Shown here one piece after another: positions 39,257-60,525 of a stretch of 64,000 bases of DNA (within the stretch, counting starts at the first letter, position 1; every line of letters starts with the position of its first letter). Source of the stretch: Fulvivirga maritima (lineage in GTDB: Bacteria; Bacteroidota; Bacteroidia; Cytophagales; Cyclobacteriaceae). The notes below the pieces were generated by a model. The model made no database searches, had not been told where the DNA came from, and saw nothing but the letters and a program-made list of their open reading frames with translations. Both the position numbers and the translations under genes were made by a program. The stretch lies in contig NZ_CP089980.1 in NCBI RefSeq assembly GCF_021389955.1, positions 2,351,001-2,415,000 of the forward strand. The letters run 5' to 3'.

Positions 39257-39298
39257 AACCGTTAGTTTCCTTTTCTATCAACAAAAAAGACATTGCTC

Positions 39299-40522
39299 AT
39301 GTCTCATACCTTTAATGTGCTATTTTGGTTACAGAATTATAAGTTAAATAATGATACAGGAAAAGTTCCGGTTTCTGTGCGTATAACGGTGGATGGTAAA
39401 AGGGCTGAGATTGCCACAGGCAAAAAGGTGCCTGCTGATAAATGGAACTCTTCTTCCGGGTTGATGCGTGGGCAGAGTGTGGAGGCTCGTAGTATTAATA
39501 AGCATTTGAGGGATATTGATTATCGGTTACACGAAATCTATGATGAACTTGAGAGGAATGGAGAGTATGTTTCAGCGCAGGCGATAAAGAGCGTTTTTCA
39601 AGGTAAGAATATTAAACAGCATTCTGTGATAGAACTGTTTAAGTATCATAATAATCAGATAAAGAGTCAGCTGGGAAAAGGGTATTCAAAAGGGACTTTG
39701 GAGAGGTATCAGACTACATTGAAACATACATTAGGATTTATACAGCATCATTATAAAGCGGATGACTTTTTATTTAGAGATATGAAGTTTTCCTTCATAA
39801 CGGAATTTGAGTTCTATTTGAAGGCGGTATGTGGTATTGGTCATAATACAGTGGTGAAATATCTTAGAAATTTTAAGAAGATAATCCTAATAGCTGTTAA
39901 AAACGATTATTTAAGCCGTGATCCGTTTGTTGGATATAAGATGTCTCTCAAAGAAGTGAAAAAGGATTATTTAACAAAAGATGAAATAGAAGCCTTGGTT
40001 AATAAAGAATTTACAATTGATAGGCTTGAGCATATTAGAGATATATTCCTTTTTTGCTGTTATACCGGCTTAGCTTATGCAGATGTTAAAAGACTTACTG
40101 CTGCCAATATATCTATAGGGTTGGATGGTGAATATTGGATTTTTATTAATAGGAAAAAGACAGGCTCCGAATCTAATGTGCCACTGCTACAGCCTGCTGT
40201 CGATATAATTGAGAAATATGAAGATTGTCCTATCACATCACATTCAGGTTATTTATTGCCTGTAATTTCCAACCAGAAAATGAATGCATATTTAAAAGAA
40301 GTTGGAACCTTGTGTGGTATAAATAAAACAATAACCTTTCATATGGCGCGTCATACATTTGCGACAACAGTTACTTTGGCTAATGGGGTTTCTATAGAAA
40401 CGGTAAGTTCTATGCTAGGGCATAAAAATATAAGAACTACTCAGATTTATGCTAAAGTAGTTCAGGAAAAAGTAAGTGCAGATATGAGAAAATTGAAATC
40501 GCTAATGAGTAAAAGTAATTGA
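39299..40522 (+). CDS. Tyrosine site-specific recombinase (integrase)
   Basis: About 407 residues from the ATG at 39299 (MSHTFNVLFWLQNYKLN); a TTG two codons upstream is less likely. The N-terminal arm-binding and SAM-like domains (DTGKVPVSVRITVDGKRAEI; SKGTLERYQTTLKHTLGFI) are typical of Bacteroidota integrases. The catalytic domain has FCCYTGLAYADVKRLT, where the first catalytic Arg is replaced as in many Bacteroidota integrases, then HMARHTFAT, MLGHKNIRTTQIYAKV with the nucleophile Tyr. It sits 260 bases past tRNA-Ser and points away from it. Likely the mover of the downstream accessory region, though the island's far end is not visible. Confidence 0.93.
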   Translation: MSHTFNVLFWLQNYKLNNDTGKVPVSVRITVDGKRAEIATGKKVPADKWNSSSGLMRGQSVEARSINKHLRDIDYRLHEIYDELERNGEYVSAQAIKSVFQGKNIKQHSVIELFKYHNNQIKSQLGKGYSKGTLERYQTTLKHTLGFIQHHYKADDFLFRDMKFSFITEFEFYLKAVCGIGHNTVVKYLRNFKKIILIAVKNDYLSRDPFVGYKMSLKEVKKDYLTKDEIEALVNKEFTIDRLEHIRDIFLFCCYTGLAYADVKRLTAANISIGLDGEYWIFINRKKTGSESNVPLLQPAVDIIEKYEDCPITSHSGYLLPVISNQKMNAYLKEVGTLCGINKTITFHMARHTFATTVTLANGVSIETVSSMLGHKNIRTTQIYAKVVQEKVSADMRKLKSLMSKSN

Positions 40523-43040: not shown

Positions 43041-43586
43041 ATGTCCGGTGGTTATAAAATAAGAAATCAGTCAGGCATTCATTTTCTTTCCTTTGCTGTA
43101 GTAGAATGGATTGATGTTTTTACTCGAAGAGTATATTGTGAGCTTATAGTGGAGAGCTTAAACCATTGCGTAAAGCAAAAGGGGTTAATTGTATATGCCT
43201 GGGTAATTATGAGTAATCATTTACATTTAATTGTGGCAGCCAAAAATGATAATCTTTCTGATGTGCTCCGTGATTTTAAAAAATTTACAGCCAGAGAGAT
43301 TTTAAAATCTATTCATAGTGAAAATGTAGAGAGCCGAAAGAATTGGATGCTATGGCTTTTTCGATCAGCGGGTGCAAATAATAATAGAAATAAGGGATAT
43401 CAATTTTGGAGACAAGATAATCATCCTGAAGAATTAGAAACCAATAATTTTAAGGATCAAAAATTAGACTATATTCACAGTAATCCAGTTAAAGCTGGAA
43501 TTGTTGATGAGCCAGAGCAATATTGTTGGTCAAGCGCAAGAGACTATGCTGGAATGCAAGGGCTTGTGAAAATTGAATTTTTGTAA
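43041..43586 (+). CDS. REP-associated tyrosine transposase (RAYT, Y1/IS200-like)
   Basis: A 181-residue HUH-type single-strand nuclease. Motifs: IHFLSFAVVEWIDVFTR, the metal-binding NHLHLIVAA (HUH), DVLRDFKKFTAREI, FWRQDNHPEEL, and the C-terminal KLDYIHSNPVKAGIV...YCWSSARDYAG that defines the RAYT subclass; the nucleophile Tyr is probably the one in KLDYIH. RAYTs are single-copy domesticated transposases that move short palindromic REP sequences. Palindromes on both flanks support this. Confidence 0.9.
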   Translation: MSGGYKIRNQSGIHFLSFAVVEWIDVFTRRVYCELIVESLNHCVKQKGLIVYAWVIMSNHLHLIVAAKNDNLSDVLRDFKKFTAREILKSIHSENVESRKNWMLWLFRSAGANNNRNKGYQFWRQDNHPEELETNNFKDQKLDYIHSNPVKAGIVDEPEQYCWSSARDYAGMQGLVKIEFL

Positions 43587-43668: not shown

Positions 43669-43853
43669 TAGCGGGGTAGCGAAGCAATACGCGTGCTCAC
43701 TACAACACCGCTCCCACCATACTCCACATGGCGTCCCACCTCCAACATCTCTCACCAATCAACAAAGCCCAAAACCCCATCAACATACCTCAATCCCTTT
43801 GCTCTTAAAACAAAAACTTGTAAGTTAACGCTCCTTATAATTAACCTACTATC

Positions 43854-45179
43854 TTGAGTTTTTCGGAAGAACAAATCCAGTCTATTGCTCCCAATGCGTC
43901 AGCTTTTAGTGCTGGTAAAAAATTAAGTGGAAACAGTAAGTGGGAGTCGTTTGGTAAAAGTGATCGGGTGATCTGGGGTGCTATTAGAGGTAGTGGCAAA
44001 AATCCATATCTCACCCAAATTGATCTTAATGATATCGCTTTTAAATGCTCCTGTCCTTCTCGTCAGTTTCCTTGTAAGCATGCCATAGCGTTAATGCTTT
44101 TATACGGCAGTCAGGAGCAAAATTTCTCGACACAGGAGGAGCCGGAATGGGTGAGCACCTGGATGGATAGTCGTAAGGCAAGGCAGGAAAAGGCGGCAGA
44201 AGCCCCTAAGAAAACTAAAGCTAAAAGTGCCGCTAAGGATACTGTTGCTAAACGATTAGAGCAGGTACAGGCAGGCGCCGCTGAGCTGGAACTTTGGCTC
44301 AAAGACCTGGTAAGGATGGGCTTGCTAGAGCTCTCTTTTAAATCTGCCAAAGACTTTAAAAAAGTAGCGGCGCGCATGGTAGATGCCAAGGCTCCCGGAC
44401 TCGCTTTTTGGGTGAGAGAACTCGGGCAGCTGAATTATAAAGACGGCAGCGTTTGGCAAGATGAATCTTTAAAGCTCATCTCTAAGCTTTTTCTACTGAT
44501 CCAGGCCATTAAGAATTATGATCAATATGACGCACAGTGGCAATACACCATAAGAACACTTGCCGGCTGGAGCCAATCCAGTAAAGAATTATTGGCTGAT
44601 GCCAATGCTGAAGTGGTAGATGATCATTGGCTGGTAGTAGGGCAGCTGGAAGAAACCAATGATGATATTGTAACGCAAAGAAACTGGCTGATAGGTAAAA
44701 GAAGCAATAGAAAAGCATTAGTGCTTAATTTCTCTACACGCTTTTCTTCTTTTGAATCTATCATATTACCAGGCAGTTATATAGAAGGGCAGTTGGCCTT
44801 TTTCCCTTCGGTGCAGCCACAGCGGGCAGTAATAAAAACACAAACCAATGCAGCTGATAAGTTTGATGTTGATTTTACTTTCACTGAAAACTGGTTAGAA
44901 GTACACCGTAAAAAGACTGAACTGATAAAGGAAAATCCATGGTCTAATGATCATTTGTTTATTTTAAATAACAGTAAATTGATCTTAAAAAATGATACCT
45001 GGTTCATGGCAGATCATGATCACTATCTTATGCCGCTCATGAAAGGCTATGACATAGACAAGTGCCTTAAAAGTTTGGCCATATGCGGCACTGCTTCCCA
45101 CCCTATGGCGGTAGTAATTCGCAATGGAGAAGCCATTCCGTTAGGCATATTTCAAAATAACCAATATACCATTTTGTAG
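43854..45179 (+). CDS. SWIM zinc-finger protein
   Basis: A 441-residue protein starting at TTG (SFSEEQIQSIAPNASAFSAGKKL); no ATG fits the conserved N-terminus, so the TTG start is likely real. The SWIM motif FKCSCPSRQFPCKHAIALMLLY (CxC...CxH) lies at ~62-84; SWIM fingers bind DNA or proteins. A Lys/Ala-rich linker (KAAEAPKKTKAKSAAKD) and a larger uncharacterised domain follow. First gene of a five-gene unit with DUF5691, MoxR-type AAA, DUF5682 and VWA proteins; the next gene starts 2 bases after its stop. By architecture it corresponds to E. coli YehQ (from memory). Biochemical role unknown. Confidence 0.85.
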   Translation: MSFSEEQIQSIAPNASAFSAGKKLSGNSKWESFGKSDRVIWGAIRGSGKNPYLTQIDLNDIAFKCSCPSRQFPCKHAIALMLLYGSQEQNFSTQEEPEWVSTWMDSRKARQEKAAEAPKKTKAKSAAKDTVAKRLEQVQAGAAELELWLKDLVRMGLLELSFKSAKDFKKVAARMVDAKAPGLAFWVRELGQLNYKDGSVWQDESLKLISKLFLLIQAIKNYDQYDAQWQYTIRTLAGWSQSSKELLADANAEVVDDHWLVVGQLEETNDDIVTQRNWLIGKRSNRKALVLNFSTRFSSFESIILPGSYIEGQLAFFPSVQPQRAVIKTQTNAADKFDVDFTFTENWLEVHRKKTELIKENPWSNDHLFILNNSKLILKNDTWFMADHDHYLMPLMKGYDIDKCLKSLAICGTASHPMAVVIRNGEAIPLGIFQNNQYTIL

Positions 45180-45181
45180 CT

Positions 45182-46753
45182 ATGTGGGAGTCGTTAAGAA
45201 ATATAGCTTTAATAGGCACGGAGAAAAAGCCGTTGGAAGCGAGTTTGCTGCCTTCTTCGATACAGGAAGCGCTGAAAGATACCGCTGAAACGCCTGAAGA
45301 GCATTTACTGCAGGCTGCTGCATACTTAACTTATTACCAGGAGGCAGGAGCGCTGCCGCCTTATGAGAAAGTAGAAGATAAAGCTGCTATTGAGGAAACA
45401 TTAGCAGAAGCCCCTGAGCTACCGATGCGGGTTTTTCAGGCTATAAAAAATGCAGGGATTCAGTTGAGCGATTACCTGCTAGGTGATTGGCTAGACTGGC
45501 TGATTTCAAAACAGTGGAAAGTAGCTGGTAGTGAGAGTGTTAATTTAGTAAATCTTGCCCAAAGTATGCGCCTGGAGCTGCGTGAGAAAGCCGTAAAGGT
45601 GCTGGGCAACAAAGGTCGGTGGATGCTCTCTCATCATCCTAAAAAAGAGCTTTTCTCTGATTTTGAAAAATCAGATATATGGGAAGAAGGCACTGCCGCA
45701 CAGCGAAAAAGCTTTTGGGCTGAACTGCACGCCACTGATCCTGAGACTGCAATACGGCTGTTGAAAAACACATGGGATACCGAGGCTATTATAACCAAAA
45801 AGGGTTTTCTGGAAGTTATGAACAGTAACCTGAGCAGGCTGGATCAAGATTTTCTCACCTATATTTATAATAATGAATTCGCCTATAAGGCAAAGGAGAA
45901 AAAAACAGAGAAGGAATGTAGAGCACTTGTAGCGGCCATGCTTTTAAGAATACCGGAAAGCGACCTGTATAAGGCCACGGCTCAAAAGCTATCTGCCTAC
46001 CTAAAGACTTCTAAAAAGTCAGCCCTCATGGGGTTGATTTCATCCGATGCTGTCACCATCTCGGTGCCTGATGAAAGTCATCCGGATGACTTTTGGAATG
46101 ATGAAAATATGCTTATTAGCTATGGCTTTGATCATCAATATGACATTGAATGGTTTAATGATAAACATCAATACTATTTGTCATATTTTCTTAGAGTAAT
46201 ACCTCTCTCTTTTTGGATACACCATTTCACGAAAGGTACAGCGGCTTTTGTTGATTATGTTTTAGGCAAAGATTTTCAAATGAATGCGGGTAAGAAAGTG
46301 CATGCTATGCATCAGGCAGCTCTTATTAAAAATGTCTCGTTAAACCATGACTCAGCGCTGGCCGAATATTTAATCAATAAACTACCTGCAGATCAAAATG
46401 CCTCTTTGTTATCTTATGTTAGTCAGGATGCTTTTGAGACTTATGTGAAAGAGAAAAAGCTTTGGACCTCCCATAATATTTTAGAGCAGACTCCGGGAAG
46501 AACCTGGTCATTACCTTTTTCAAATTATGTTTTAAAAGGACTATTTGAGTCCTACGGACAGCAGTATCATAGCATGCATAATCATGGTCAGGTATTATGT
46601 AAGTACCTGCATATTGATAGTGGTGATGAACTGCGCAGGCTTAATGAAAAAGCCCAAAGTGTCACTTATTATAAAAGCTGGGAGAAGAACGTATTTACTC
46701 CTGCTAAACTTGGATTAACCTTAAAAAAAGCAATCGCTTCATCTAATGAATAA
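45182..46753 (+). CDS. DUF5691-type protein of the SWIM/MoxR/VWA cluster
   Basis: A 523-residue, largely helical cytosolic protein without signal peptide. It begins MWESLRNIALIGTEKKPLE and contains regular helical pairs (SMRLELREKAVKVLGNKGRWMLSHHP; LHATDPETAIRLLKNTW) resembling HEAT/ARM-like repeats, a common protein-binding scaffold. I place it in DUF5691 mainly from its constant position between the SWIM and AAA genes and this N-terminal pattern. Its end overlaps the AAA gene by 8 bases, implying coupled translation. Confidence 0.72.
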   Translation: MWESLRNIALIGTEKKPLEASLLPSSIQEALKDTAETPEEHLLQAAAYLTYYQEAGALPPYEKVEDKAAIEETLAEAPELPMRVFQAIKNAGIQLSDYLLGDWLDWLISKQWKVAGSESVNLVNLAQSMRLELREKAVKVLGNKGRWMLSHHPKKELFSDFEKSDIWEEGTAAQRKSFWAELHATDPETAIRLLKNTWDTEAIITKKGFLEVMNSNLSRLDQDFLTYIYNNEFAYKAKEKKTEKECRALVAAMLLRIPESDLYKATAQKLSAYLKTSKKSALMGLISSDAVTISVPDESHPDDFWNDENMLISYGFDHQYDIEWFNDKHQYYLSYFLRVIPLSFWIHHFTKGTAAFVDYVLGKDFQMNAGKKVHAMHQAALIKNVSLNHDSALAEYLINKLPADQNASLLSYVSQDAFETYVKEKKLWTSHNILEQTPGRTWSLPFSNYVLKGLFESYGQQYHSMHNHGQVLCKYLHIDSGDELRRLNEKAQSVTYYKSWEKNVFTPAKLGLTLKKAIASSNE

Positions 46754-47837
46754 AAGTATGGATATACTTAGACAAAATGCCGCCCTGCAGTTTGAAGAAG
46801 AACTGGAAAACCTGAAAAAACAAGACACTGGTGCTGTGCCTACAGGCTGGCAAATGTCGCCTCTGTCTGTAGTGACCTACCTGATGGGGGGTACCCTTAA
46901 AAATAAATTTGAAGTGACCCCGAAATACATCGGTAACAGAAGGTTAATGGAAATAGCCGTGGCCACGCTTACTACTGATAGAGCATTATTGCTATACGGT
47001 ATACCGGGAACAGGTAAATCCTGGGTGTCGGAGCACCTTACGGCAGCCATCACTGGAGATCCTTCACTACTTATTCAGGGGACAGCCGGCACCGGCGAAG
47101 AAGCCATTCGCTATGGTTGGAACTACGCTAAGCTTTTGGCCGAAGGGCCTACAGAAGGAGCCCTGGTAGAAACCCCCATGATGCGAGGCATGAAACAGGG
47201 TAAAATAGTTAGAATAGAAGAGCTTACCCGTATTTCTGCTGATGTGCAGGATACCCTCATTACTATTCTTAGTGAGAAAATTATGCCTATTCCTGAGCTG
47301 TCTGCAGAAGTGCAAGCAGTGAAAGGGTTTAATGTAATTGCCACTGCCAATAACCGTGATAAAGGGGTGAATGACCTGTCATCTGCCTTAAAAAGACGTT
47401 TTAATACCGTTATTCTTCCTGTTCCTAACACGCCAGAAGAAGAAATAAACATAGTGCAGACCAGAGTGGCCAGTCAGATGAAAGCCCTGGAGTTGCCGGC
47501 AGAATTACCGGGACTGGAAGAAATTAAGCGCGTGGTGCAAATTTTCAGAGAGCTTAGAAATGGCGTTACCGAAGACGGCCGTACTAAGCTGAAGACACCG
47601 AGTAGCACGGTAAGCACGGCAGAAGCTATTTCGGTGGTGAACAGTGGACTATCATTAGCTGCTCATTTCGGAAATGGAAAGCTTTCGGCTCATGACATGG
47701 CTTCAGGCTTGGTAGGAGCCATAGTGAAAGACCCTGTTCAGGATACCGTAGTTTGGAATGAATACCTGGAGACCGTAGTAAAAACCAGAGAAAACTGGAA
47801 AGATATTTACAGGGCGTGCAAAGAAATCACTTTCTAA
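46746..47837 (+). CDS. MoxR-type AAA+ ATPase (YehL-like)
   Basis: A 363-residue AAA+ ATPase. Walker A is LLYGIPGTGKSWVSEHL, the Walker B region is GKIVRIEELTRIS (with Glu-Glu), and the sensor-1 segment is FNVIATANNRDKGVNDLSSALKRRFN, with the MoxR-type arginine finger. MoxR ATPases pair with VWA proteins to remodel or load metal centres in target complexes. Length and neighbours match the YehL subfamily. It overlaps DUF5691 upstream by 8 bases and is 3 bases from DUF5682 downstream. Confidence 0.9.
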   Translation: MNKSMDILRQNAALQFEEELENLKKQDTGAVPTGWQMSPLSVVTYLMGGTLKNKFEVTPKYIGNRRLMEIAVATLTTDRALLLYGIPGTGKSWVSEHLTAAITGDPSLLIQGTAGTGEEAIRYGWNYAKLLAEGPTEGALVETPMMRGMKQGKIVRIEELTRISADVQDTLITILSEKIMPIPELSAEVQAVKGFNVIATANNRDKGVNDLSSALKRRFNTVILPVPNTPEEEINIVQTRVASQMKALELPAELPGLEEIKRVVQIFRELRNGVTEDGRTKLKTPSSTVSTAEAISVVNSGLSLAAHFGNGKLSAHDMASGLVGAIVKDPVQDTVVWNEYLETVVKTRENWKDIYRACKEITF

Positions 47838-47840
47838 TTT

Positions 47841-50060
47841 ATGGCCATTCACGTTTTAGGCATACGGCATCATGGAGTTGGGTCAGCGCGACAGGTCAAA
47901 AAAGAACTGGAACGCTTGCAGCCTGACATCGTATTGGTAGAGGGACCACCTGAAATAGCCGAGGTTTTTGAATATGTGGGACATCCTGACCTAAAACCTC
48001 CTGTGGCCATAATGGTGTACAATAGCAATGTGCCTCAAGAGTCTACCTTTTATCCTTTTGCTGAATATTCACCGGAATGGGTAGCCATAGCTTATGCTAA
48101 TGAGCATAAAATACCCGTTAAGGCCATTGACCTTCCGGCTAGTATTAGCTTTACCATGAGAAGGAAAGAGGCTAAAAATGAGCCATCCACACCTCCGCCG
48201 GAAGATCCACTTACACTCGTAGCCCAATCGGCCGGGTTTAAAAGTGGAGAAAGGTTCTGGGAACATCATTTTGAGCAATCTGCTGGCAATGAGCATTTTG
48301 AAAGTGTAATGCACGTGATGCAATCGCTACGTGAAGATGGCCTGGAGAGTGCCATGGATGCTGAGAACACACATCGTGAAGCGTATATGCGTATGCTTAT
48401 TCAGGATAGTGTTAATGAAATGTATACCAACATTGCCATTGTATGTGGTGCCTGGCATGCTCCTACTTTGGTAGATCCTGCAGGGTATGCAAAAGAAGAT
48501 AAGAAGGTGCTCAAAAAGCTGCCTAAAACTAAAACCAAGATCACCAGCACCTGGATTCCCTGGACTAATGACAGGCTCAGCATGCATTCAGGGTACGGAG
48601 CAGGTATATTCTCACCAGGATGGTATTCACATCTATGGCATAATACTGCCGAATATGAAATTCCCTGGCTCATTAAAGTGGCCAGCATGTTTCGGGAAAA
48701 GGGCATGGACATGTCTACCGCGCATGCTATTGAAGCTTTCCGCCTTGCTCGCAGTCTGGCTATTCTTAGGAATAATCATTATGTGTCGTTAGATGACTTA
48801 AATGATGCTGTGCTCTCCGTTATGTGTATGGGAGATGGCATATTGCTGGAACTGGTTAAAGACCAGCTCATTATTGGTGATGGCTTGGGAGAAGTGCCTG
48901 AAGACATGCCAAAAATGCCTCTTCAGGAAGACTTTGAACAGTCAGTAAAAAAGCTAAGACTTAAGCTTACAGCTGATCCTAAAGAGGTAAACCTCGATCT
49001 CAGAAAGCCCAACGATCTTGAGAAAAGCAAGCTCTTTCATCGGTTAGCCATTTTAGAAATTCATTGGGCCACACCCAGCTACTCCAGAGGTAAAGGTACC
49101 TTCAAAGAATCATGGCGACTGGAGTGGACAGTGGGCATGATGATAGAACTCATTGATAAAGCGTTTTTAGGAAACACCATTGCTTCGGCAGCTCAGGCAG
49201 TGCTGATCAAAAAAAGTAATGCAGCGCAAAAGGTAGATGATGTAGCTAAACTCATAGACCTGTGCATACCAGCGGCCTTGTTTGATGAACTGGATCATCT
49301 GTTAAACAAGGTGAATGAGCTGTCTAGTATTTCATCTGACATATTGGATCTGATGAAATCCTTACCACAATTGATCAATGTAGCTCGCTATGGCGATGTG
49401 CGAAATTCGGATATGGATGTGCTTGATCAGATCATACACCAGTTATTGATTAAGGTAAATGTTGGTTTGCCCAATGCAGTATATGGTTTAGATGAGGATA
49501 ATGCTCTGGAAATGTTCGGCCAGATCACTGCGCTGCACCAGGCTATAAAAATCTACTCCAAACCGGAGGAAGAAGAACCCTGGTATTTTACCTTGCATCA
49601 GGTGCTCAATAAAGAAGATGTGCACAGTGTGATACTGGGCTGTGTTTGCCGGCTTTTGTTGGATAGTCAGCAGCTTAGTGAAGATGAAGCCGATATGTAT
49701 ATTTCCTATGCGCTCTCAGTTAACAATGATCCTATGGACGTGGCAGCCTGGATTGAAGGTTTCCTCAAAGGTAGCGGCTCTATTTTAATTTATGATAATC
49801 GTCTCTGGAACCTGGTTTTTGAGTGGGTAGAGTCCTTAGATAAGGATACATTCATTCAGCTGGTGCCCATGCTCAGAAGAACATTTTCAAAGTTTGAATA
49901 TGCAGAAAGGCGTCAGCTAGGGCAGAAAGCCCGACAGGGACTCGCCAGTGATGAGCCGGCTACGACCTATAATACAGAGCAATTTGATGGTGAACTGGCC
50001 GATTCAGTGATACCTTATATTAGCAAATTCTTAACACCAAACAGCACTCACCATGAATAA
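47841..50060 (+). CDS. DUF5682-family protein (YehM-like)
   Basis: A 739-residue cytosolic protein. The N-terminal ~280 residues resemble the TraB/TIKI/EreA-like fold: VLGIRHHGVGSARQVKKEL, LQPDIVLVEGPPEIAE, and a later NIAIVCGAWHAPTL; His and Glu in these motifs could form a metal site. A helical middle follows (AHAIEAFRLARSLAILRNNHYVSLDDLNDAVLSVMCMGDG), then a long helical C-terminus. Length is close to E. coli YehM. It overlaps the VWA gene by 8 bases. A hydrolase role is inference. Confidence 0.82.
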   Translation: MAIHVLGIRHHGVGSARQVKKELERLQPDIVLVEGPPEIAEVFEYVGHPDLKPPVAIMVYNSNVPQESTFYPFAEYSPEWVAIAYANEHKIPVKAIDLPASISFTMRRKEAKNEPSTPPPEDPLTLVAQSAGFKSGERFWEHHFEQSAGNEHFESVMHVMQSLREDGLESAMDAENTHREAYMRMLIQDSVNEMYTNIAIVCGAWHAPTLVDPAGYAKEDKKVLKKLPKTKTKITSTWIPWTNDRLSMHSGYGAGIFSPGWYSHLWHNTAEYEIPWLIKVASMFREKGMDMSTAHAIEAFRLARSLAILRNNHYVSLDDLNDAVLSVMCMGDGILLELVKDQLIIGDGLGEVPEDMPKMPLQEDFEQSVKKLRLKLTADPKEVNLDLRKPNDLEKSKLFHRLAILEIHWATPSYSRGKGTFKESWRLEWTVGMMIELIDKAFLGNTIASAAQAVLIKKSNAAQKVDDVAKLIDLCIPAALFDELDHLLNKVNELSSISSDILDLMKSLPQLINVARYGDVRNSDMDVLDQIIHQLLIKVNVGLPNAVYGLDEDNALEMFGQITALHQAIKIYSKPEEEEPWYFTLHQVLNKEDVHSVILGCVCRLLLDSQQLSEDEADMYISYALSVNNDPMDVAAWIEGFLKGSGSILIYDNRLWNLVFEWVESLDKDTFIQLVPMLRRTFSKFEYAERRQLGQKARQGLASDEPATTYNTEQFDGELADSVIPYISKFLTPNSTHHE

Positions 50061-51237
50061 TGATGAATTAGAAATCCTGGAAAAATGGAGATTGATACTT
50101 GGTGGCGACGAGGCCGATGGTACGGAGGTAAAGCTCTCTGACCAAATGGATGGATTGGACCAGACGCTCTCTGCGCTGTATGAGTTTGAGCGCACTAAAA
50201 GCTTTGACTATGGAGCAGAAAAAGGTGCCGGAGGACAGGATAAATCGAACCCGGGAGTGGCCAGATGGCTGGGAGATATTCGTAAGTATTTTCCTAACTC
50301 CGTAGTTCAGGTGATGCAGAATGATGCTTTGAAATATCCTGATTTACAGAAGAAACTGATTTTTGAACCGGAAATACTGGAACAGGCAGAAGCCGATATT
50401 CATCTGGTGGCTACACTGATGCAACTGGGCAAGCTAATTCCTGCCAAAACCAAAGATACCGCCAAGAGAGTGGTTCAAAAAGTGGTAGATGAACTTATGG
50501 CCAAGCTAGAGCAAAAAACCGTTTCAGCTTTAAGTGGAGCTCTCAATAAATCAGCTAAGAAGTTTCACCCAAGGTATAATGAGATCAACTGGGATGCTAC
50601 CATTCGGAAGAATCTTAAGCACTATCAGCCTGATTATAAAACCATTATACCTGAGGTGAGAATAGGATATGGAAGGAAGTCCAAAAGGTCATTAAAAGAT
50701 ATTGTGCTTTGCATAGATCAAAGTGGTTCCATGGGTACTTCCATTGTTTACTCTGGAATATTTGGCGCTGTAATGGCCTCCGTGCCGACTGTTAAAACAA
50801 AAATGGTGCTTTTTGATACTGATGTTGCCGATCTTACTGAAGACCTGAAAGACCCTGTAGATCTACTTTTTGGTGTGCAGATGGGTGGAGGCACAGACAT
50901 TAACCTTGCCTTAAAATACTGTCAGGAACTAATAACAAAAGCTGATGACACTATTCTGGTGCTCATTACAGATTTGTATGAAGGCGGTAATGCCAAAGAA
51001 ATGCTAAAAAGAGCACGGGACATGATAGAGTCAGGGATTCAGTTTATTTGTCTGTTAGCGCTAAACGATGAAGGCAGCCCCAGTTATGATAGCAATATGG
51101 CATCCAAACTATCGCAGATGGGCGCTCCGGTATTTGCCTGCACCCCAGATCAGTTTCCAGACCTCATGGCCGCAGCCATTCAAAAGCAAGACTTAAAGCA
51201 ATGGGCCGGAGAGCATGAAATTGTATTGAAGGGGTAG
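50053..51237 (+). CDS. VWA-domain protein (YehP-like)
   Basis: A 394-residue soluble protein. The N-terminal ~210 residues are helical (ILEKWRLILGGDEADG; MDGLDQTLSALYEFE). The C-terminal VWA domain has a complete MIDAS: IVLCIDQSGSMGTS (DxSGS), a Thr-containing GGGTDINLALKYC loop, and VLITDLYEGG (Asp). VWA partners of MoxR ATPases recruit the client protein. Last gene of the cluster, overlapping DUF5682 by 8 bases. Confidence 0.9.
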   Translation: MNNDELEILEKWRLILGGDEADGTEVKLSDQMDGLDQTLSALYEFERTKSFDYGAEKGAGGQDKSNPGVARWLGDIRKYFPNSVVQVMQNDALKYPDLQKKLIFEPEILEQAEADIHLVATLMQLGKLIPAKTKDTAKRVVQKVVDELMAKLEQKTVSALSGALNKSAKKFHPRYNEINWDATIRKNLKHYQPDYKTIIPEVRIGYGRKSKRSLKDIVLCIDQSGSMGTSIVYSGIFGAVMASVPTVKTKMVLFDTDVADLTEDLKDPVDLLFGVQMGGGTDINLALKYCQELITKADDTILVLITDLYEGGNAKEMLKRARDMIESGIQFICLLALNDEGSPSYDSNMASKLSQMGAPVFACTPDQFPDLMAAAIQKQDLKQWAGEHEIVLKG

Positions 51238-51388
51238 GAGTGGTGAAGAATCGACGAGCTATTTTTGAGATCAAATGTCTGAACGGTTTTGCCTATGTCC
51301 TTATCTCCTATGCAAATGCCCAAACTTAGGTATTGAATATTACTAAATAAACTTACTCTTTAATAGAAGTACATAACATTAAAAACAA

Positions 51389-52177
51389 ATGAAAAAATTA
51401 AACCTGCTATTACTAATAACACTATCCCTTCTGTTTTCTTGTAAGGATGATGATAGTACACCTGATGATGCCAGTGAGAAAGAAGCCATTAGTGCAAAAT
51501 GGGTCGTAAATGATAATGACACATATCAATCATTTGAATTCAATAAAAGCTACACTTATATTGTTGTCAAAGTAGACCAAGTCAATGGTGCCCCGATAGT
51601 CTTGTTTGGCAACTATAATATTGTTGATAGTAAAACTGTCGAATTAGAGGATTTTGGAACCATTGAGATTGATGAGATCGATGATAATTCGATAAGTTTT
51701 GCACTTCAGGTAGATGGTGAAGATAAAGTTAATATCAGCGCTGCCAAGCAAGCTGAAATGAATAATTCCACCAGAACTGAATTATTATGCCGCACATGGC
51801 AAATGGTAACAGTTAATGGGGAAGAAGTGACAGGCACTGAATTTGATTTAACTGTATTATTTTCACAGGCAGGCACCTATTTTGTGGAGCTAGCAAATCC
51901 TGACGATGAAAATGAAGGAGGGCTAGCCAGTTGGAAATGGTATGATGACACTGAGACTCACTTTTTATATTCTTGGGGAGATCCTGCAGTATGGGATGAA
52001 GAGGATATCGTAGAGGTTGTTGAGCTAACAGACAATTCACTTAAAATACTAGAAATATATAGTAATGGCGATGAAGAGCTTTATGAAATGGCACCCGCTA
52101 ATTCAAAATCGTCAAGGATAATGAGTAATGCTAGTGACAATAATATTAAGTTAAAAAGGGGATTTCTTAAACATTAA
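51389..52177 (+). CDS. Lipoprotein with two lipocalin-like domains
   Basis: A 262-residue lipoprotein (LLLLITLSLLFSCKDDD; lipobox Cys18, then acidic residues). Two beta-rich halves look like lipocalin-type sheets common in Bacteroidota: ISAKWVVNDNDTYQSFEFNK...DFGTIEIDEIDDNSI, then LLCRTWQMVTVNGEEVTG...EIYSNGDEELYEMAP. Function unknown; probably outer-membrane attached. It starts the repeat-rich stretch and is followed by a perfect hairpin. Confidence 0.6.
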   Translation: MKKLNLLLLITLSLLFSCKDDDSTPDDASEKEAISAKWVVNDNDTYQSFEFNKSYTYIVVKVDQVNGAPIVLFGNYNIVDSKTVELEDFGTIEIDEIDDNSISFALQVDGEDKVNISAAKQAEMNNSTRTELLCRTWQMVTVNGEEVTGTEFDLTVLFSQAGTYFVELANPDDENEGGLASWKWYDDTETHFLYSWGDPAVWDEEDIVEVVELTDNSLKILEIYSNGDEELYEMAPANSKSSRIMSNASDNNIKLKRGFLKH

Positions 52178-52195
52178 GAAAAACTCAAACAGTCG

Positions 52196-52245
52196 CTCGA
52201 TTTCAACAGTCACCCGGTATGAGCCGGGCGACTGTTGAAATCGAG
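52196..52245. repeat. Long perfect inverted repeat
   Basis: CTCGATTTCAACAGTC (52196-52211) pairs with GACTGTTGAAATCGAG (52230-52245), 16 bp perfect, continued inside by CCCGG/CCGGG with one mismatch. No T-tract follows. It abuts a MITE-like repeat at 52247. Confidence 0.75.
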
Positions 52246-52246
52246 G

Positions 52247-52418
52247 CCTCTGGCCGGTTAGGTAAGGGTGAACAATATAGGATGTCAATTATTAATTAAA
52301 TTTAAATTTTACCGGCATAGCCCATTTCAGATGGCTAATGATATTACTAATGCTAAGTCAGTAATGAAAATTAAAGCTTTTCAATTATCATAAGTCAGTG
52401 CAATTCCGGGTAGAGGTC
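52247..52418. repeat. MITE-like element, copy A
   Basis: About 172 bases bounded by GCCTCTGGCCGGTTA on the left and a degenerate inverted end CCGGGTAGAGGTC on the right. It shares both end sequences (GTCAGTGCAAT..., then TCTAAAGCA...ATGATCA) with a second copy at 59585-60977. The middle looks diverged by eye. No coding capacity. Confidence 0.55.
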
Positions 52419-52649
52419 TAAAGCAAAATGATCAAGTACTTCTCCTCCAAATAAGATAAGGAGATTTCTAAATTCACGATGTATGGTCAATGTTTCGTGA
52501 TTGAGGTTGTAGGTGCTCCGATTAGGCTGGCTATTTTTATTAATAAATAATTGTATCTTGGGCTGCTATACTCAATCGCTCCCACTCAGTAGAGTCATAT
52601 TTCATCTTAATTTTAATTTGTTGTGTAACATTATGAACTTCTCAGAAAT

Positions 52650-53510
52650 ATGTCATCTGTCAATCTTAGATTTTTCTTTGAAATCATTTCTTCTGAATTA
52701 GAAAGAATCGACACATCGGATCCTGATTCGAAACTTGTACTTAACCTTTCGCCTACTGACCAAAGTATTGTTTTAATAGCGGGGCTTGATTCGGAAACTT
52801 TAATTGATAAAGTTCAATTCGAAAGATACCTCAAATGTCGAATAAAAAAAGGAGACAAAATACCTTTCTTGAAATCATTAATTCAAAATGATATATCAAG
52901 TATCCTAGATACATTAAAAAACACACTTCTAGAAAGCATTGACCTATATTATCATTTTGAAGAGCTTCTTGACAGTACAAACCTTTTGGTCAATAACAAT
53001 GATTGTGGCAATAAGGTAATTATCTCCAAAACTCCTAAAACCTCTCTAATAATTGGTCTTTTAAGTTCTTCAATCATAAAAATGATGTCCTCACTAGATA
53101 TCGTTGTCAAATATTGTTACGCCCTTGAGGAGAAAGAAAACTTTAATTATAGTAAATATCATAAAATCAATAACAAAATTCTATTTGGAGACGCTAAACA
53201 CTTGAAAAAAATTAAAGGAGTAACGGAAAGCATAAGCAACGTATCTAATGACATTCGCTTATTGGAAAACTTACGTAACGACTTTATACACAATAATTCC
53301 ATAAATTCATTTAACAGAATCTATGTTAAAATTTTCAACAATAAAGTGATTGACAAATATATTTTAATTCCAGATTCTCAAGATGGACATTTCCTTAAAT
53401 CGACGAATAGAAACCGTTTCTTCTCAAACGAAAATAAACTGAATGAGTTTGTTCCAAATGTTTACGAAGAGGTACTTAAAAAAGTGATTAACACTCTAAA
53501 GCAATATTAA
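52650..53510 (+). CDS. HEPN-like protein (possible RNase effector)
   Basis: A 286-residue, AT-rich, mostly helical protein without a signal peptide. The C-terminal half contains LENLRNDFIHNNS (R209-x4-H214), matching the R-x(4-6)-H active-site motif of HEPN ribonucleases, with an upstream helix (IIKMMSSLDIVVKYCYALEE) as expected for that fold. HEPN proteins are common effectors in toxin-antitoxin and phage-defence systems. No antitoxin is adjacent; a hairpin repeat lies 38 bases after the stop. One motif in a helical protein is not conclusive. Confidence 0.55.
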   Translation: MSSVNLRFFFEIISSELERIDTSDPDSKLVLNLSPTDQSIVLIAGLDSETLIDKVQFERYLKCRIKKGDKIPFLKSLIQNDISSILDTLKNTLLESIDLYYHFEELLDSTNLLVNNNDCGNKVIISKTPKTSLIIGLLSSSIIKMMSSLDIVVKYCYALEEKENFNYSKYHKINNKILFGDAKHLKKIKGVTESISNVSNDIRLLENLRNDFIHNNSINSFNRIYVKIFNNKVIDKYILIPDSQDGHFLKSTNRNRFFSNENKLNEFVPNVYEEVLKKVINTLKQY

Positions 53511-53928
53511 ACTTTACACTATGATTAGTACCAAACATTCGCTAGGACCCAACCTGGTCCAAGGTTTAATCTCTGGCGCAAGTGTCCACTTGTGCCTTTA
53601 CTAATAGCCAACTGCTCCTACATTTAACTTCCGTTGCATAATACCAGCCCACTAACCTGCATATCTACAGCAATGCTCCTACTATTTGATTATTGACAGA
53701 ATTGATCATGGTGGAATAGGTATAATTAAATGATTAAATATATTATTACCTGATAAGTCAATTATATTTAAAAATATCACTAAATTATATAAAGGCCCTT
53801 TGGCACTGAGTAGGTGTGATTTTACTATGGTGTTTAGAGGAGTTAAGCACAGCATTGAAATGAATCATAACATTAAAAATTAATACTATGTCATTAAATT
53901 AAATTTAAACCTAAATCAACTTAAACTC
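53511..53928. other. Gene-free, AT-rich spacer before the pectate lyase
   Basis: 418 bases with no credible gene. It holds hairpin repeat copy 1 near its start. The last ~230 bases are very AT-rich and probably contain the lyase promoter; I could not place a TAnnTTTG box. Confidence 0.5.
53548..53602 (+). repeat. Dispersed hairpin repeat, copy 1
   Basis: Core arms GGCGCAAGTG / CACTTGTGCC around TC (53575-53596), preceded by AACCTGGTCCAAG. One of five copies in the window, all in the same orientation. Confidence 0.8.
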
Positions 53929-54798
53929 ATGAAAAAAGTATTCACATTAATTTGTCTAGCAAGTGTATTGCTATTCAATTGTTCAGAAGAGAATGTTTCT
54001 CCTGATACTAAAGAAGTGTCTGCTGCAGGCGCTACTTATAATGTATCCTCTGAATCCGCACTACGGTCTGCTGTGGCTAATGCGCAGCCTGGAGATCAAA
54101 TTAACGTTACTGGTACTATTTACTTAACCCAGACTCTGGAGCTTGCCAATAGTGGTACATCAAGTGCTAAGATCAACCTTACAGGAAATGGAACTTACCG
54201 AACCATTAACTGCTCGGGCGTAAGTGGCTGGGGTATTAAGTGCAATGCCAGCTACTGGAATATTTCCTGGCTAAATATAGAATACGCCGGTGATTGCGGA
54301 TTGGTATTTCAATACGGAGGCTACAACTGGGTTAATAAATTACGAACCCGTGGTTGTGGAGATTCCGGTCTACAAATCTATAACAGCTCTCATCATAACA
54401 GTATTAATTATTCCACTTCATATGATAACTATGATGCAGGTAATGGTGGTGAAAATGCTGATGGTTTTGCTTGTAAACTTTCTGCCGGCCAAGGCAACCA
54501 GTTCTACAAATGTAACGCTTATAATAACTCAGATGATGGCTGGGATCTTTACGGTCAGCCTTATACTGTAGTTATGAATCACTGCCTGGCCAGAGATAAT
54601 GGTTATGGATCTAATGGAGATGGCAACGGTTTTAAATTAGGTAGTGCTGGACAAAACGTGCCACATACCGTGACTAATTGTACTTCAAATAACAACCTTT
54701 CTTGGGGGTATGATGGTAATGGAAATACAGGCCACATTACATTAACTAATAGCGGTGGCTCAGGTAACGGTAAAGGCTTGTTTACAAGAATTTATTAA
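53929..54798 (+). CDS. PL9-like pectate lyase lipoprotein (parallel beta-helix)
   Basis: A 289-residue lipoprotein (SVLLFNCSEE lipobox). The mature part is a right-handed parallel beta-helix: short repeating coils such as GDCGLVFQYGGYNWVNKLRTRGCGDSGLQIYNSSHHNSI. The segment NADGFACKLSAGQGNQFYKC followed by AYNNSDDGWDLYG is characteristic of family 9 pectate lyases, including the region carrying the catalytic Lys and Ca-binding Asp residues. Predicted to cleave polygalacturonate at the cell surface. Shorter than many PL9 enzymes but apparently complete. Confidence 0.85.
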   Translation: MKKVFTLICLASVLLFNCSEENVSPDTKEVSAAGATYNVSSESALRSAVANAQPGDQINVTGTIYLTQTLELANSGTSSAKINLTGNGTYRTINCSGVSGWGIKCNASYWNISWLNIEYAGDCGLVFQYGGYNWVNKLRTRGCGDSGLQIYNSSHHNSINYSTSYDNYDAGNGGENADGFACKLSAGQGNQFYKCNAYNNSDDGWDLYGQPYTVVMNHCLARDNGYGSNGDGNGFKLGSAGQNVPHTVTNCTSNNNLSWGYDGNGNTGHITLTNSGGSGNGKGLFTRIY

Positions 54799-54806
54799 AA
54801 TCATTT

Positions 54807-54878
54807 AAGTCAGATTGAGGTTTCTCGAAATCTTCGTTTTTTGAGTAGGGAGGTATTTCGAGTACCTCAATGTGACTT
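54807..54878. repeat. Nested inverted repeat between convergent genes
   Basis: The outer arms AAGTCAGATTGAGGT and ACCTCAATGTGACTT (one mismatch) enclose inner arms CTCGAAAT / ATTTCGAG. It forms a 72-base cruciform after the pectate lyase. It may end transcription or be a mobile REP-type element. Confidence 0.65.
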
Positions 54879-54952
54879 TTCTTTAGTTAATAAACCAGTT
54901 CAAAGTGACAGGCATTAATCAAGTAGACAGTCTTCCTTTTAGAGATCAACCT

Positions 54953-55795
54953 TCATTTGTGTTGTTTAAATACTTCGATTATTTCCTCGTTTTCAAGGTT
55001 GATAGCAATTTCATAAGCCGATTGTTCTTCAGGAATATTAGGATCAGCCCCTGATTCTAAAAGGAGTTTTACCATATCAGTATGCCTGTTTCTGCATGCC
55101 GCTATAAGAGGTGTGTTCTTATATTTATTGATATAATTCACATCTGCACCTTTGGAAATGAGAAGTTGACTGATGCTGTCTTTTCCTTGAATGGACATCA
55201 TGAGGAGAATGCAATCATCCTCTGAGGTTTTGTAGTTGACATCGGCCCCTTGGTTAATCAGGGTTTTAGTGATTTCATAATTACCCCTTAATGCAGCATA
55301 GGCGAGAGGAGTGAGTCCTTCTTTGCTGGTGTCCTGCAAATGGGCTCCAGCTTCCGCATACATTTTGGCCAGTTCTGTAAACCCATAGCTGCTAGCATAC
55401 ATCAGTGGCGTTACATTTTCATCGTTTTTTACATTTACTGAGGCCCCTTTTTCCAGTAAATATTGTGCTACTTTCGGCCTGTTTTGCATAGATGCCATTA
55501 GCAATGCATTTTCACCATGACCTTCGCGTAAGTCTATATTAGCACCTTTATCAATCAGCCATATTGCCAAATCATCATGACCATAATAAATGGCCCATAA
55601 CAATGGCGTATAACCGTGTGAGTCTGTTTTGTCAATCGTTTCTTGGGCAGTGGCGATATACTGTTGAATACAATCCATATCGTTTGACTTCGCATCTTCA
55701 ATAATATCTCCACTGCAGGTGTGTGAACAGGATGATAAGTTGATCCATAATAAGGGCAGAAGTAAAAGTAAGGAAGTAATTTTTTCGGTATTCAT
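54953..55795 (-). CDS. Ankyrin-repeat lipoprotein
   Basis: A 280-residue lipoprotein (WINLSSCSHTC lipobox). Six to seven ankyrin repeats, e.g. HGYTPLLWAIYYGHDDLAIW, VTPLMYASSYGFTELAKMYA, KNTPLIAACRNRHTDMVKLL, each ending in an (A/S)xxN-type turn. Ankyrin repeats mediate protein-protein contacts; bacterial exported forms are often inhibitors or scaffolds. It is 21 bases downstream of the metalloprotease gene on the same strand, so it may be its cotranscribed partner (inference). Confidence 0.85.
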   Translation of the reverse strand: MNTEKITSLLLLLPLLWINLSSCSHTCSGDIIEDAKSNDMDCIQQYIATAQETIDKTDSHGYTPLLWAIYYGHDDLAIWLIDKGANIDLREGHGENALLMASMQNRPKVAQYLLEKGASVNVKNDENVTPLMYASSYGFTELAKMYAEAGAHLQDTSKEGLTPLAYAALRGNYEITKTLINQGADVNYKTSEDDCILLMMSIQGKDSISQLLISKGADVNYINKYKNTPLIAACRNRHTDMVKLLLESGADPNIPEEQSAYEIAINLENEEIIEVFKQHK

Positions 55796-55816
55796 ATAAT
55801 AAGGTAATTAGGTTGA

Positions 55817-56992
55817 TTAATCTGTAATAATGATTTTTATAATTTTATTCACCCGAAAATCAGCACTCTGCACATGCATAAAATACATACCTTGATCTAA
55901 TAATGATACTTGCACAGTGGCCTTTTCATGGGGGGTATTATTTAATTTTTGAGAAAGAATGAGTAATCCTTGAGAGTTGTATATTTTTAAATCTATTTTA
56001 TCCAGATAAGGAGGCCACTTTAAGTTTATTACATCATTTGCGGGGTTGGGAAAGGCGGTGATAAGACTGCTTTCCGTTTGATCCCAACCAATACTTTTTA
56101 AGACATGATTAGTTCTTTCATCTATTTCATGAAAATAAGTGCCTGGATCAAAAAAAGGCCTCATTAGCGTGTTCGAAGTGTTTTCATCATGATCCCAATG
56201 GCTCAGGCTTACGCCTGAAGAAAAAGTGATCGGGCTATAGCATTTCCAATAGGAATCATTATCGGAAGTGTTACTAATGAAAATGTCACCCTCAGAAAGA
56301 AGGTCTTCCAGTAATTGTGGCGATTCGTAATTGATTAAACGAGTATGGTCCCCGGTCATCAGTAGGCGATCGAATACACTGAAACTTTCGTCAGTAGAAA
56401 ATATCACGCCCTCAGGAGTTTGCTCTGCACTGGAAATGAAGCCCATGCCGTGGGTGATTTCATGGAGCAAAATAGTGTAGAGATCGATTTGGTTAGAATC
56501 ACATTTACCATCAATTCCGAAATACCAGTTAATACCTGCGTTGAGCTTAATCTCAATTTCAAAATCATCTGGATTATTAAGTTCTTTTCCAGCTAATTTT
56601 TCAGCTAAAGCAATGGGATACCATATGTTGTTGGGAGTGTTGGTGCTGAAATTTCTAATAAATGAAGATGGCCTTGTCAGAGCCATGAAATTACCTGTTT
56701 CTGCCCACTCAAGGCTTATCTTGATGGGGGTGTTGGTAGTTACCTGAGCGTTCCATTTTGAGAGAACACTTTTAATTGCCGGCAGTGCCTCTGCTGGGCT
56801 ATAGAGGGTAACTGCCCTGAAATTACCAACGGTTATTTCCTCTGAAACCGCAGTAGAAGGCTTTCTATTAACAGTTTGCACTTTGGAGCAGCTTATCCAT
56901 TCACCAACACGCGAATTCTGAGCCGCTGTCCATTGCGGCAGCAGTATAATCAATAATAAAATCACCCCTATGGAGCTAACTCGTAATGGCAT
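55817..56992 (-). CDS. Secreted zinc metalloprotease with T9SS sorting domain
   Basis: A 391-residue exported protein with a signal peptide (VILLLIILLPQWTAAQ). The catalytic motif is LLHEITHGMGFIS (HExxHxxGF), a zincin pattern. The C-terminal ~80 residues form a T9SS type A sorting domain: LITAFPNPANDVINLKWP, a strand-rich middle, and a final FRVNKIIKIIITD. Predicted secreted or surface-attached protease. Transcribed with the ankyrin lipoprotein downstream. Confidence 0.85.
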   Translation of the reverse strand: MPLRVSSIGVILLLIILLPQWTAAQNSRVGEWISCSKVQTVNRKPSTAVSEEITVGNFRAVTLYSPAEALPAIKSVLSKWNAQVTTNTPIKISLEWAETGNFMALTRPSSFIRNFSTNTPNNIWYPIALAEKLAGKELNNPDDFEIEIKLNAGINWYFGIDGKCDSNQIDLYTILLHEITHGMGFISSAEQTPEGVIFSTDESFSVFDRLLMTGDHTRLINYESPQLLEDLLSEGDIFISNTSDNDSYWKCYSPITFSSGVSLSHWDHDENTSNTLMRPFFDPGTYFHEIDERTNHVLKSIGWDQTESSLITAFPNPANDVINLKWPPYLDKIDLKIYNSQGLLILSQKLNNTPHEKATVQVSLLDQGMYFMHVQSADFRVNKIIKIIITD

Positions 56993-57316
56993 AATTAGGT
57001 TGAATAATGCTGTTGGGAGTTTTACTACTAGAAAAAATCAAAAATATTCCCCTATTAAAGATAATGAATTAACCCGGACTCTACGATTATTAAGTGGGTT
57101 GTTTGAGTGGTGTTGAGAGTATGGTATGATTCACGCAAATTGCTTTAATTCATCAGCGGTTCCTCATAAGGAGCTTCCGCTATATATTTTGCGGAAGCAA
57201 GTTTTACTACTTAATCATATAAATGAAAAGTATAAATTTGAGCCATTCTAAATGGTAGGTCTTCAGGTATAACTTATCAATACGTTTTTGTGTAATGGGG
57301 GATTTTCGAATATAGA
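56993..57316. other. Gene-free spacer with a perfect hairpin
   Basis: 324 bases. A perfect 8-bp hairpin GCTTCCGC / GCGGAAGC with a 10-base loop lies at 57173-57198, overlapping a second weaker pairing (AGCGG...CCGCT). No gene is visible; the leftward metalloprotease promoter should be here. Confidence 0.5.
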
Positions 57317-57730
57317 ATGAAGAATATCGTTTTAATAAAAAGCCTTTTGAAGCTTATGGCAGTGAGTGGATTTATCTGTAGTTGTAATAACTGCAGCTGC
57401 CCAGAAGTATCAAGTGCGCTGATAGGAAGGTACGAGCAGATAGAACGTGATTAAAGTAAAGAAGAAAGCGGAAAAGAGGAATACATTGATATCATTAACG
57501 ATTGTACTTATGTTCATATCCTCCAAAAGGATACAATAGACTATAAGTTTAAGGCGTCATGGGACTATGATCCTATAAAGTGCAAAGTCTATTTATATAA
57601 TTTTAATTATGTATATGAGAGATATCCAGGTCAGACAGCTTATGGAACCGAGGGATTAACCAAATATCATTATTGCAATAGCTATTTACGAATATCAAAT
57701 GAGTATTTAGAATATAGAAAAATGAATTGA
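57317..57730 (+). pseudogene. Lipoprotein gene broken by an in-frame stop
   Basis: The frame runs 138 codons from ATG 57317 (MKNIVLIKSLLKLMAVSG) with a lipobox-like FICSCNNCSC. A TAA at 57452-57454 (codon 46) interrupts it, after which the same frame stays open for 91 codons to TGA at 57728 (EEYIDIINDCTYVHILQKD; YKFKASWDYDPIKCKVYLY). The pattern suggests one mutation in a small lipoprotein gene. A sequencing error cannot be excluded. I do not recognise the family. Confidence 0.6.
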
Positions 57731-57733
57731 CGA

Positions 57734-57794
57734 TTAACCCTAATCTGGTCCAAGACTTAAACTCTGGCGCAAGTGTCCACTTGTGCCTTCTACG
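57734..57794 (+). repeat. Dispersed hairpin repeat, copy 2
   Basis: Core hairpin at 57766-57787, identical to copy 1 in its 22-base core. It begins 4 bases after the stop of the broken lipoprotein gene. Confidence 0.8.
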
Positions 57795-57873
57795 TTGAGA
57801 AGGTCTTTTTTCATTTAGCAGGGCACGTCAGCTATCTAATACAGGAGTAGTCTTAGCATATTATTTTTAAAGT

Positions 57874-58065
57874 TTGGATATTAACCAGGCATTACAAATG
57901 CCTGGGGAGATGTGGTCGCAATGCAATTGCGACCTAGCTGGTATTGATGAATATTTAACGGACTATTATATATCTATGAGTGACTTGGGGTATACGGTTA
58001 ATGATTTTGAATTGTTGGTTAATAGTTTAAGTGAAGCAACTAATCAAAAAGAGGAAGAAGAATGA
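57874..58065 (+). CDS. Hypothetical small protein
   Basis: Up to 63 residues from TTG 57874, or 55 from ATG 57898 (MPGEMWSQCNCDLAGIDEYL). Acidic tail (NQKEEEE). No signal peptide. Its stop overlaps the start of the next gene (ATGA), implying coupled translation. I do not recognise it. Confidence 0.4.
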   Translation: MDINQALQMPGEMWSQCNCDLAGIDEYLTDYYISMSDLGYTVNDFELLVNSLSEATNQKEEEE

Positions 58066-59380: not shown

Positions 59381-59433
59381 ATTTTTTATTGCTGAAAGCT
59401 TTTTTCAAAGGAATTAAAATTTCAGAAAGATGA

Positions 59434-59657: not shown

Positions 59658-59668
59658 TGGACAATAAG

Positions 59669-60493: not shown

Positions 60494-60525
60494 CCTCTCA
60501 ACACCAAATCTGTGGTTGTATTCCT

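Follow-up and report, generated by a model that had tools for sequence, protein, structure and literature searches.

Five genes of Fulvivirga maritima, which run intact and head to tail along the + strand at positions 43854-51237 of the 64,000-nt stretch of contig NZ_CP089980.1 analysed here (the window, from whose first letter all locus coordinates are counted), may encode a MoxR/VWA machine that holds, remodels, gates or metal-loads a TIKI-like hydrolase, the DUF5682 protein. We give this reading about an even chance of being right. It is based on gene order, co-retention and fusions, on intact ATPase and metal ion-dependent adhesion site (MIDAS) motifs, and on the TraB-like motif and predicted fold of DUF5682. 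Open reading frame (ORF) calls and Pfam identified the genes, in order, as those of a SWIM zinc-finger protein, a DUF5691 protein, a YehL-type MoxR AAA+ ATPase, a DUF5682 protein related to E. coli YehM and a VWA_CoxE protein related to E. coli YehP. The five-gene observation of an initial annotation of this DNA is confirmed, and its interpretation overall is partly supported. What appears to be new is the TIKI-type partner of a kind of machine that is already known.

The DUF5682 gene (47841..50060, 739 aa) is the only one in the window genome (6.39 Mb, single contig), and its Pfam match (776 bits) spans 727 of 727 profile positions. Residues 1-219 (47841..48497) appear to form a TraB/TIKI-like domain by motifs, profile alignment and predicted fold. 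The motif G7xxH10, E34, R179, G203xxH206 reproduces the TraB pattern GxxH, E, R, GxxH, with the conserved Glu and Arg between the two GxxH. H10, E34, R179, G203 and H206 were invariant in all 98 distinct DUF5682 sequences (99 aligned rows minus one duplicate, L035 being the same as L167), down to 21% identity, and G7 was kept in 92 of the 98. With HHalign, the DUF5682 profile aligned to a TraB profile at the motif positions; the TraB alignment (A7) held 22 of 30 TraB loci, second matches per genome being left aside, and the profiles dropped one of the 30 TraB and one of the 16 erythromycin-esterase sequences as too short. The predicted model has the TraB/TIKI core fold, a beta-sheet flanked by helices, and its best fold matches were TraB-family proteins, one of them on a probable chain identity; in PDB the signal emerged with VIA as a second look, and absence from the fold-match lists does not exclude a family. 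The assignment of the N-terminal domain as TraB/TIKI-like, made in the initial annotation, therefore holds up on motif, profile and modelled fold, and homology to this superfamily, which has both metal-dependent and metal-independent members, is supported. Besides its dedicated AAA+ and VWA partners, what sets DUF5682 apart from TraB/TIKI hydrolases is a long C-terminal helical part (residues ~360-702, 48918..49946, from the secondary structure of the model), which gave weak fold matches to many solenoids.

The five genes are conserved as a unit. When genome contigs were scanned with an alignment of four DUF5682 sequences, at least 589 stretches matched; 551 of these encode a relative, and the best 80 of the 551 were used. 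Having been selected for their likeness to the window, these 80 loci are mostly Bacteroidota. The order SWIM-DUF5691-AAA-DUF5682-VWA was found in 67 of the 80 and in 64 of the 68 that have long flanks, and ATPase, DUF5682 and VWA stood in order in 72/80. The four long-flank exceptions were L017, L063, L074 (DUF5682 alone) and L084 (SWIM not found). Loci whose records are titled Thiofilum, Leptolyngbya, Acidobacteria and Chthoniobacteraceae show the window order too, and annotated genes place it in Deinococcus, where one small gene is added, and on Rhizobium plasmids. The genes thus adjoin commonly rather than rarely, in agreement with the initial annotation. Pairwise distances among the five proteins correlated at r 0.82 to 0.96 (68 sequences), which fits joint inheritance, but we give these correlations little weight because they are inflated by shared species history. 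Alignment A2 held 72 of the 80 loci (L006, L022, L031, L040, L047 and L065-L067 were dropped, as near copies of others or by selection), whereas A3 covered 58 of 70 listed loci and A4 53 of 66.

The genes are also retained together. When 148 genomes were drawn once from the window's phylum, Bacteroidota, DUF5682, DUF5691 (over cut-off) and the YehL-type ATPase (E <= 1e-60) were found in the same four genomes, and one further genome had a weak DUF5691 match under the cut-off. If the families were independent, the chance that a second set of 4/148 coincides would be about 5e-8 by our own arithmetic, which ignores kinship. In four genomes where DUF5682 stands alone (G037, G158, G183 and G188), relatives of the ATPase (62-70% identity), VWA (45-63%), DUF5691 and SWIM proteins were all found outside its flanks, and in G037 the DUF5682, DUF5691, ATPase and VWA genes lie on four separate contigs; these assemblies are fragmented, and G158 seems to hold a clustered set too (contig 16). 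Two natural fusions suggest how the proteins pair. In Streptomyces atratus, a single annotated coding sequence joins DUF5682 (33-823) to VWA (900-1261; the annotated product has 1255 aa and the positions refer to a 1267-aa open frame), and a 1009-aa coding sequence of Hymenobacter, again annotated as one, joins SWIM (3-461) to DUF5691 (499-860). VWA would accordingly pair with DUF5682, and SWIM with DUF5691.

The ATPase gene (46746..47837, 363 aa; Pfam AAA_5, 117 bits) and the VWA gene (50053..51237, 394 aa; 162 bits) both encode complete sites. The ATPase has Walker A GIPGTGKS, Walker B IVRIEE, sensor 1 ATAN and the arginine finger KRRF, and the MIDAS of the VWA protein reads DQSGS / GGGTD / TD. 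Motif search expressions missed some relatives, for instance finding Walker A in 72/76 and Walker B and the arginine finger in 67/76 each, which may reflect sequence variation or truncated ORFs. The nearest solved sequences to the ATPase were Midasin (1.2e-14) and NorQ (3.5e-5). PMC3893208 names seven subfamilies of MoxR ATPases, YehL among them, and the window ATPase can be placed in the YehL subfamily by its MoxR/AAA_5 motifs, by the profile of its family, which E. coli YehL matches with 452 bits, and by its position beside DUF5682 and a VWA gene. The SWIM gene (43854..45179, 441 aa, TTG start) gave 27.5 bits with Pfam SWIM (cut-off 19.6); its CxCx6CxH is complete, C65, C67, C74 and H76 belonging to the 26 columns that never vary across 54 aligned rows, and the rest of the protein has no Pfam family. 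DUF5691 (45182..46753, 523 aa; 161 bits) evolves faster than the other four proteins and has a predicted all-helical alpha-solenoid fold, in line with its initial description as HEAT-like. Its model gave no match at E <= 0.001 with Foldseek alone, and PDB sequence searches with DUF5691 and VWA returned nothing usable. The spacings from 5' to 3' are +2, -8, +3 and -8 bases. The same-strand layout with gaps or overlaps of at most 8 bases, the TTG start, the MoxR-type ATPase and the intact MIDAS had all been described correctly.

Two architectures were observed. Class I is the window's order, and class II, the E. coli-type order seen in E. coli, Iodobacter and Allorhizobium, runs ATPase-DUF5682-VWA-SWIM (the SWIM gene by annotation), with a DUF4132 gene before or inside the run and DUF5691 not detected at these loci. 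The likeness to the E. coli yehL-yehM-yehP-yehQ group put forward in the initial annotation stood for the ATPase, DUF5682 and VWA, which are relatives of YehL, YehM and YehP in the same order, and was incomplete for the rest: in K-12 a SWIM gene comes last in the run instead of first, DUF5691 was not detected and yehI (DUF4132) lies upstream. The E. coli DUF5682 protein is 27-28% identical to that of the window over 61% of the query (tblastn, eight E. coli records). Among the 80 loci, a DUF4132 gene, always on the same strand, stood beside DUF5682 or VWA in 25 by clustering and in 26 by profile; Pfam on two of these neighbours gave DUF4132 for both and HEAT_2 over cut-off for one. The sole DUF4132 match of the window genome (G000:C1:445418-445933, L132) is in a 1690-codon open frame ~1.95 Mb from the cluster.

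The NorQ/NorD metal-insertion chaperones likewise combine a MoxR-type AAA+ ATPase with a VWA protein that has an intact MIDAS. There, the AAA+ pore takes up a finger of the VWA protein, and the strain that ATP consumption puts on a linker lets metal into the target (PMC13036017), and MIDAS residues are required for client activity and dispensable for ring binding (PMC9976466). Their client differs, being nitric oxide reductase, and the available text describes no SWIM, DUF5691 or DUF5682 partners (PMC13036017). By analogy, the VWA protein of the cluster would couple the YehL-type ring to DUF5682. We imagine a hexameric ATPase that acts via the VWA protein to hold and remodel DUF5682, a putative TraB/TIKI-fold hydrolase that would serve this machine both as client and as effector. 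The VWA protein would dock onto DUF5682 by its MIDAS, and ATP hydrolysis would turn the hydrolase on, by opening the active site or by helping with metal loading. SWIM and the DUF5691 solenoid may form a second sub-complex that brings substrate or signal, a delivery role that DUF4132 could take over, or add to, in E. coli-type loci. We infer these steps, from the hexamer through docking, gating or metal loading and substrate delivery to catalysis. More tentatively, and at less than an even chance, DUF5682/YehM would found a new TIKI branch that is ATP-gated or metal-loaded by a dedicated MoxR/VWA motor, with SWIM-DUF5691 or DUF4132 choosing the substrate.

Several results weigh against a TIKI-like client driven by this machine. 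The HHalign probabilities were 8.5%, 22.6%, 37% local and 57% global, with modest profile P-values. DUF5682 had no match to PF01963 (TraB_PrgY_gumN) at E 0.01, DUF5682 alone being reported, so that it would be a superfamily relative and not a member of that family. With Foldseek alone, the DUF5682 model matched nothing at E <= 0.001 in either library; the top PDB match was cohesin SA2 (E 9.2e-3), and a Tetrahymena chain ranked fifth in PDB (E 0.077, probability 0.91). We take this Tetrahymena chain to be a TraB subunit, which is probable rather than certain as no name was found for chain DQ or chain E, and the TraB profile had no match among PDB sequences at E <= 1. Each fusion type is one case, the SWIM match is weak in G037 (26% identity) and partial in G183, and DUF5691, for which the E. 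coli control gave no match, is not universal. As for other families, erythromycin esterase (PF05139) compared no better than unrelated controls, with hhalign P of 0.052 and 0.036 vs 0.057 and 0.065 for VWA, and DUF5682 against PDB sequences gave nothing usable, the best match (E 0.029) being a HAD-like protein.

The most serious alternative, which we judge rather unlikely, is that DUF5682 is a structural or regulatory subunit and that ATPase, VWA and DUF5682 together act on another enzyme complex, in the way that RavA-ViaA serves respiratory complexes. The MoxR/VWA pairs studied so far do serve separate clients (PMC3893208, PMC13036017), and the C-terminal helices of DUF5682 as well as DUF5691 resemble binding scaffolds. 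A mere scaffold would, however, hardly explain a motif that is invariant down to such low identity, and the S. atratus fusion joins VWA to DUF5682 itself. As for the surroundings, the commonest neighbour is DUF4132, and the other neighbours recurring in at least four loci (at most 15 loci) are mostly farther off or limited to a single genus.

If DUF5682 is indeed the client, the TIKI-type site in the constant partner of YehL would provide this subfamily with a first client to consider and an enzyme activity to assay, and a hydrolase fold familiar from the Wnt-cutting TIKI proteins would come under AAA+-driven control. Such an ATP-gated TIKI-type hydrolase would occur in almost every E. coli and, in scattered fashion, across many phyla. 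Of 5426 E. coli genomes, 5301 matched yehLMPQ, at a median of one place; 5162 had one place covering >=80%, and 5320 of the 5322 places were chromosomal; since the E. coli form is near-universal, the proposal could be tested by gene removals and point mutants in K-12. The term DUF5682 appears in no paper within open-access PubMed Central, a scope outside which subscription papers and preprints fall, and the search listings of the same collection, preprints aside, gave no function for YehL. In the available text of the sources, yehL, yehM, yehP and yehQ are named together in a genome announcement (all four) and a strain collection (two), and yehP appears in an expression list (PMC3589462), though not in the main text of a paper on ArcZ.

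The initial annotation had also suggested a defence or stress role, and MoxR-vWA ternary systems, with VMAP, iSTAND, FtsH or beta-propeller components, share the MoxR and vWA core and were proposed as conflict systems (PMC7159879). That the cluster serves in biological conflict or against phages, with an AAA+/VWA sensor that frees the TIKI-like hydrolase as a toxic effector, is improbable in our opinion. The third component in this locus is DUF5682: no VMAP, inactive STAND, FtsH or beta-propeller Pfam match over cut-off was found among the five proteins, and the ATPase falls below the bpMoxR cut-off (20.4 vs 27). The fixed gene set also appears unlike the swapped effectors of the ternary systems, as far as PMC7159879 allows us to judge, and its main text mentions none of YehL, SWIM, TraB and DUF5691. 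PADLOC 2.0.0 was run on the cluster and on five neighbouring proteins, ten in all; at E 0.01, SWIM, DUF5691, DUF5682 and VWA drew no match, and the ATPase drew three short, weak and partial ones (best 20 bits).

The flanks point the same way. The flank set comprised 486 ORFs shorter than 700 aa and no more than 6 kb from a unit with >=4 core matches; proteins from 140 of its 322 dereplicated clusters matched 25 PADLOC families, vs 57 for 140 control proteins. The controls represent 140 of 174 clusters, built on 194 ORFs that came from 20 regions of 16 kb selected in these genomes. As the control contigs are those with a DUF4132 match, often the unit's own contig away from the unit, they are an imperfect random draw, and the tally counts families, each via one protein, with 25 of the 57 control families listed; the comparison reveals no enrichment of defence families, nor is it evidence of their depletion. 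The flank matches include a JetA-like (DUF3375) defence relative, one of the 140 proteins, and the control matches include Cas1 and Cas6; the several JetA rows and the several Cas1 rows are probably one protein each. A restriction-modification set lies near the Iodobacter plasmid locus, which would suit a conflict system, as would the patchy spread of DUF5682 between species (4/148 genomes of the window's phylum and 12/299 of that of genome G171). Plasmid records with DUF5682 number 36 of 72,556 in PLSDB, a count that takes in likely chromosomes, since six of the records (H1, H17, H18 and H23-H25) are chromosome-sized. A phage link is not apparent: 30 stretches of viral contigs matched the search patterns and 0/30 encode a relative. 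A phage origin was rejected, as the sole match in a phage collection, the unverified 'Bacteriophage sp.' record MT835988.1 (L163), has the look of a contig from a bacterium; there, ATPase-DUF5682-VWA lie beside what we read as a deacetylase and a RarA-like ATPase. On the PADLOC results and the comparison of flanks with control, we rejected a defence island as the main explanation. The defence role was not borne out, the near-universal and chromosomal presence in E. coli and a SufS-like neighbour in nine Chitinophaga loci also speaking against it.

The mobile elements that had been placed near the cluster are indeed there. A REP-associated transposase (43041-43586; NF047646, 95 bits, cut-off 80) and a tyrosine recombinase (39293-40522; Pfam) precede it, and IS1595-type and rve-type transposases, the latter IS3-like by our reading, lie between 58419 and 60493. 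The closest named match is Fulvivirga sediminis, whose DUF5682 is 98% identical. The block 43704-51237 is common to both Fulvivirga genomes at 95.6% identity, and both of its sides differ except for two short similar upstream pieces; the block therefore sits in a variable region, so that some mobility is real, which would also suit a conflict system. We read the set as one that moves between lineages as a block and is stable once in place, and as accessory physiology more than defence.

Weakest of all, by a little, is a DNA-damage or genome-maintenance unit with the SWIM and DUF4132/WGR proteins as nucleic acid-side partners: SWIM fingers are often DNA-binding and DUF4132 is a recurrent sixth gene, but DUF4132 was found in 26 of 50 DUF5682-carrying genomes, we recognised no repair gene by reading among the neighbours recurring in >=4 loci, and one SRAP protein was found in the 140 flank proteins, among the matches listed (25 of 147 families). 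In Deinococcus radiodurans, the operon drA0165-0166 (DUF4132) and dr2173 (WGR) are strongly upregulated on DdrO depletion (PMC8533742), which would bear on DUF5682 if these genes are linked to it. Papers on DUF4132 and molR offered no more than hints.

A few further observations concern the surroundings of the cluster. A scan for promoters and terminators found sites no more numerous than in shuffles. In F. sediminis (L006 4356-4672), most of the upstream REP-associated transposase gene is missing, the matches to its two sides being ~35 bases apart, and another 1.2 kb of different DNA precedes the shared block. Downstream, the window has ~9.7 kb (51238-60900) with ankyrin-repeat, beta-helix and sorting-domain proteins and two transposases, vs ~2.2 kb in F. 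sediminis. In the plasmid cluster of Methylosinus trichosporium (L159 11220-12388), the VWA gene is in three ORF pieces and unannotated, the other four genes being annotated. What we read as a SufS-like aminotransferase lies at least ~5 kb upstream in 11 loci, nine of them Chitinophaga (L013, L014, L044, L046, L052, L060, L062, L064, L065, L066 and L073 in all), and there was a SufE match among the scanned flank proteins. In L029, L031, L032, L043 and L057, an opposite-strand gene (up to 1563 aa), DUF4011-type by our reading, directly follows VWA.

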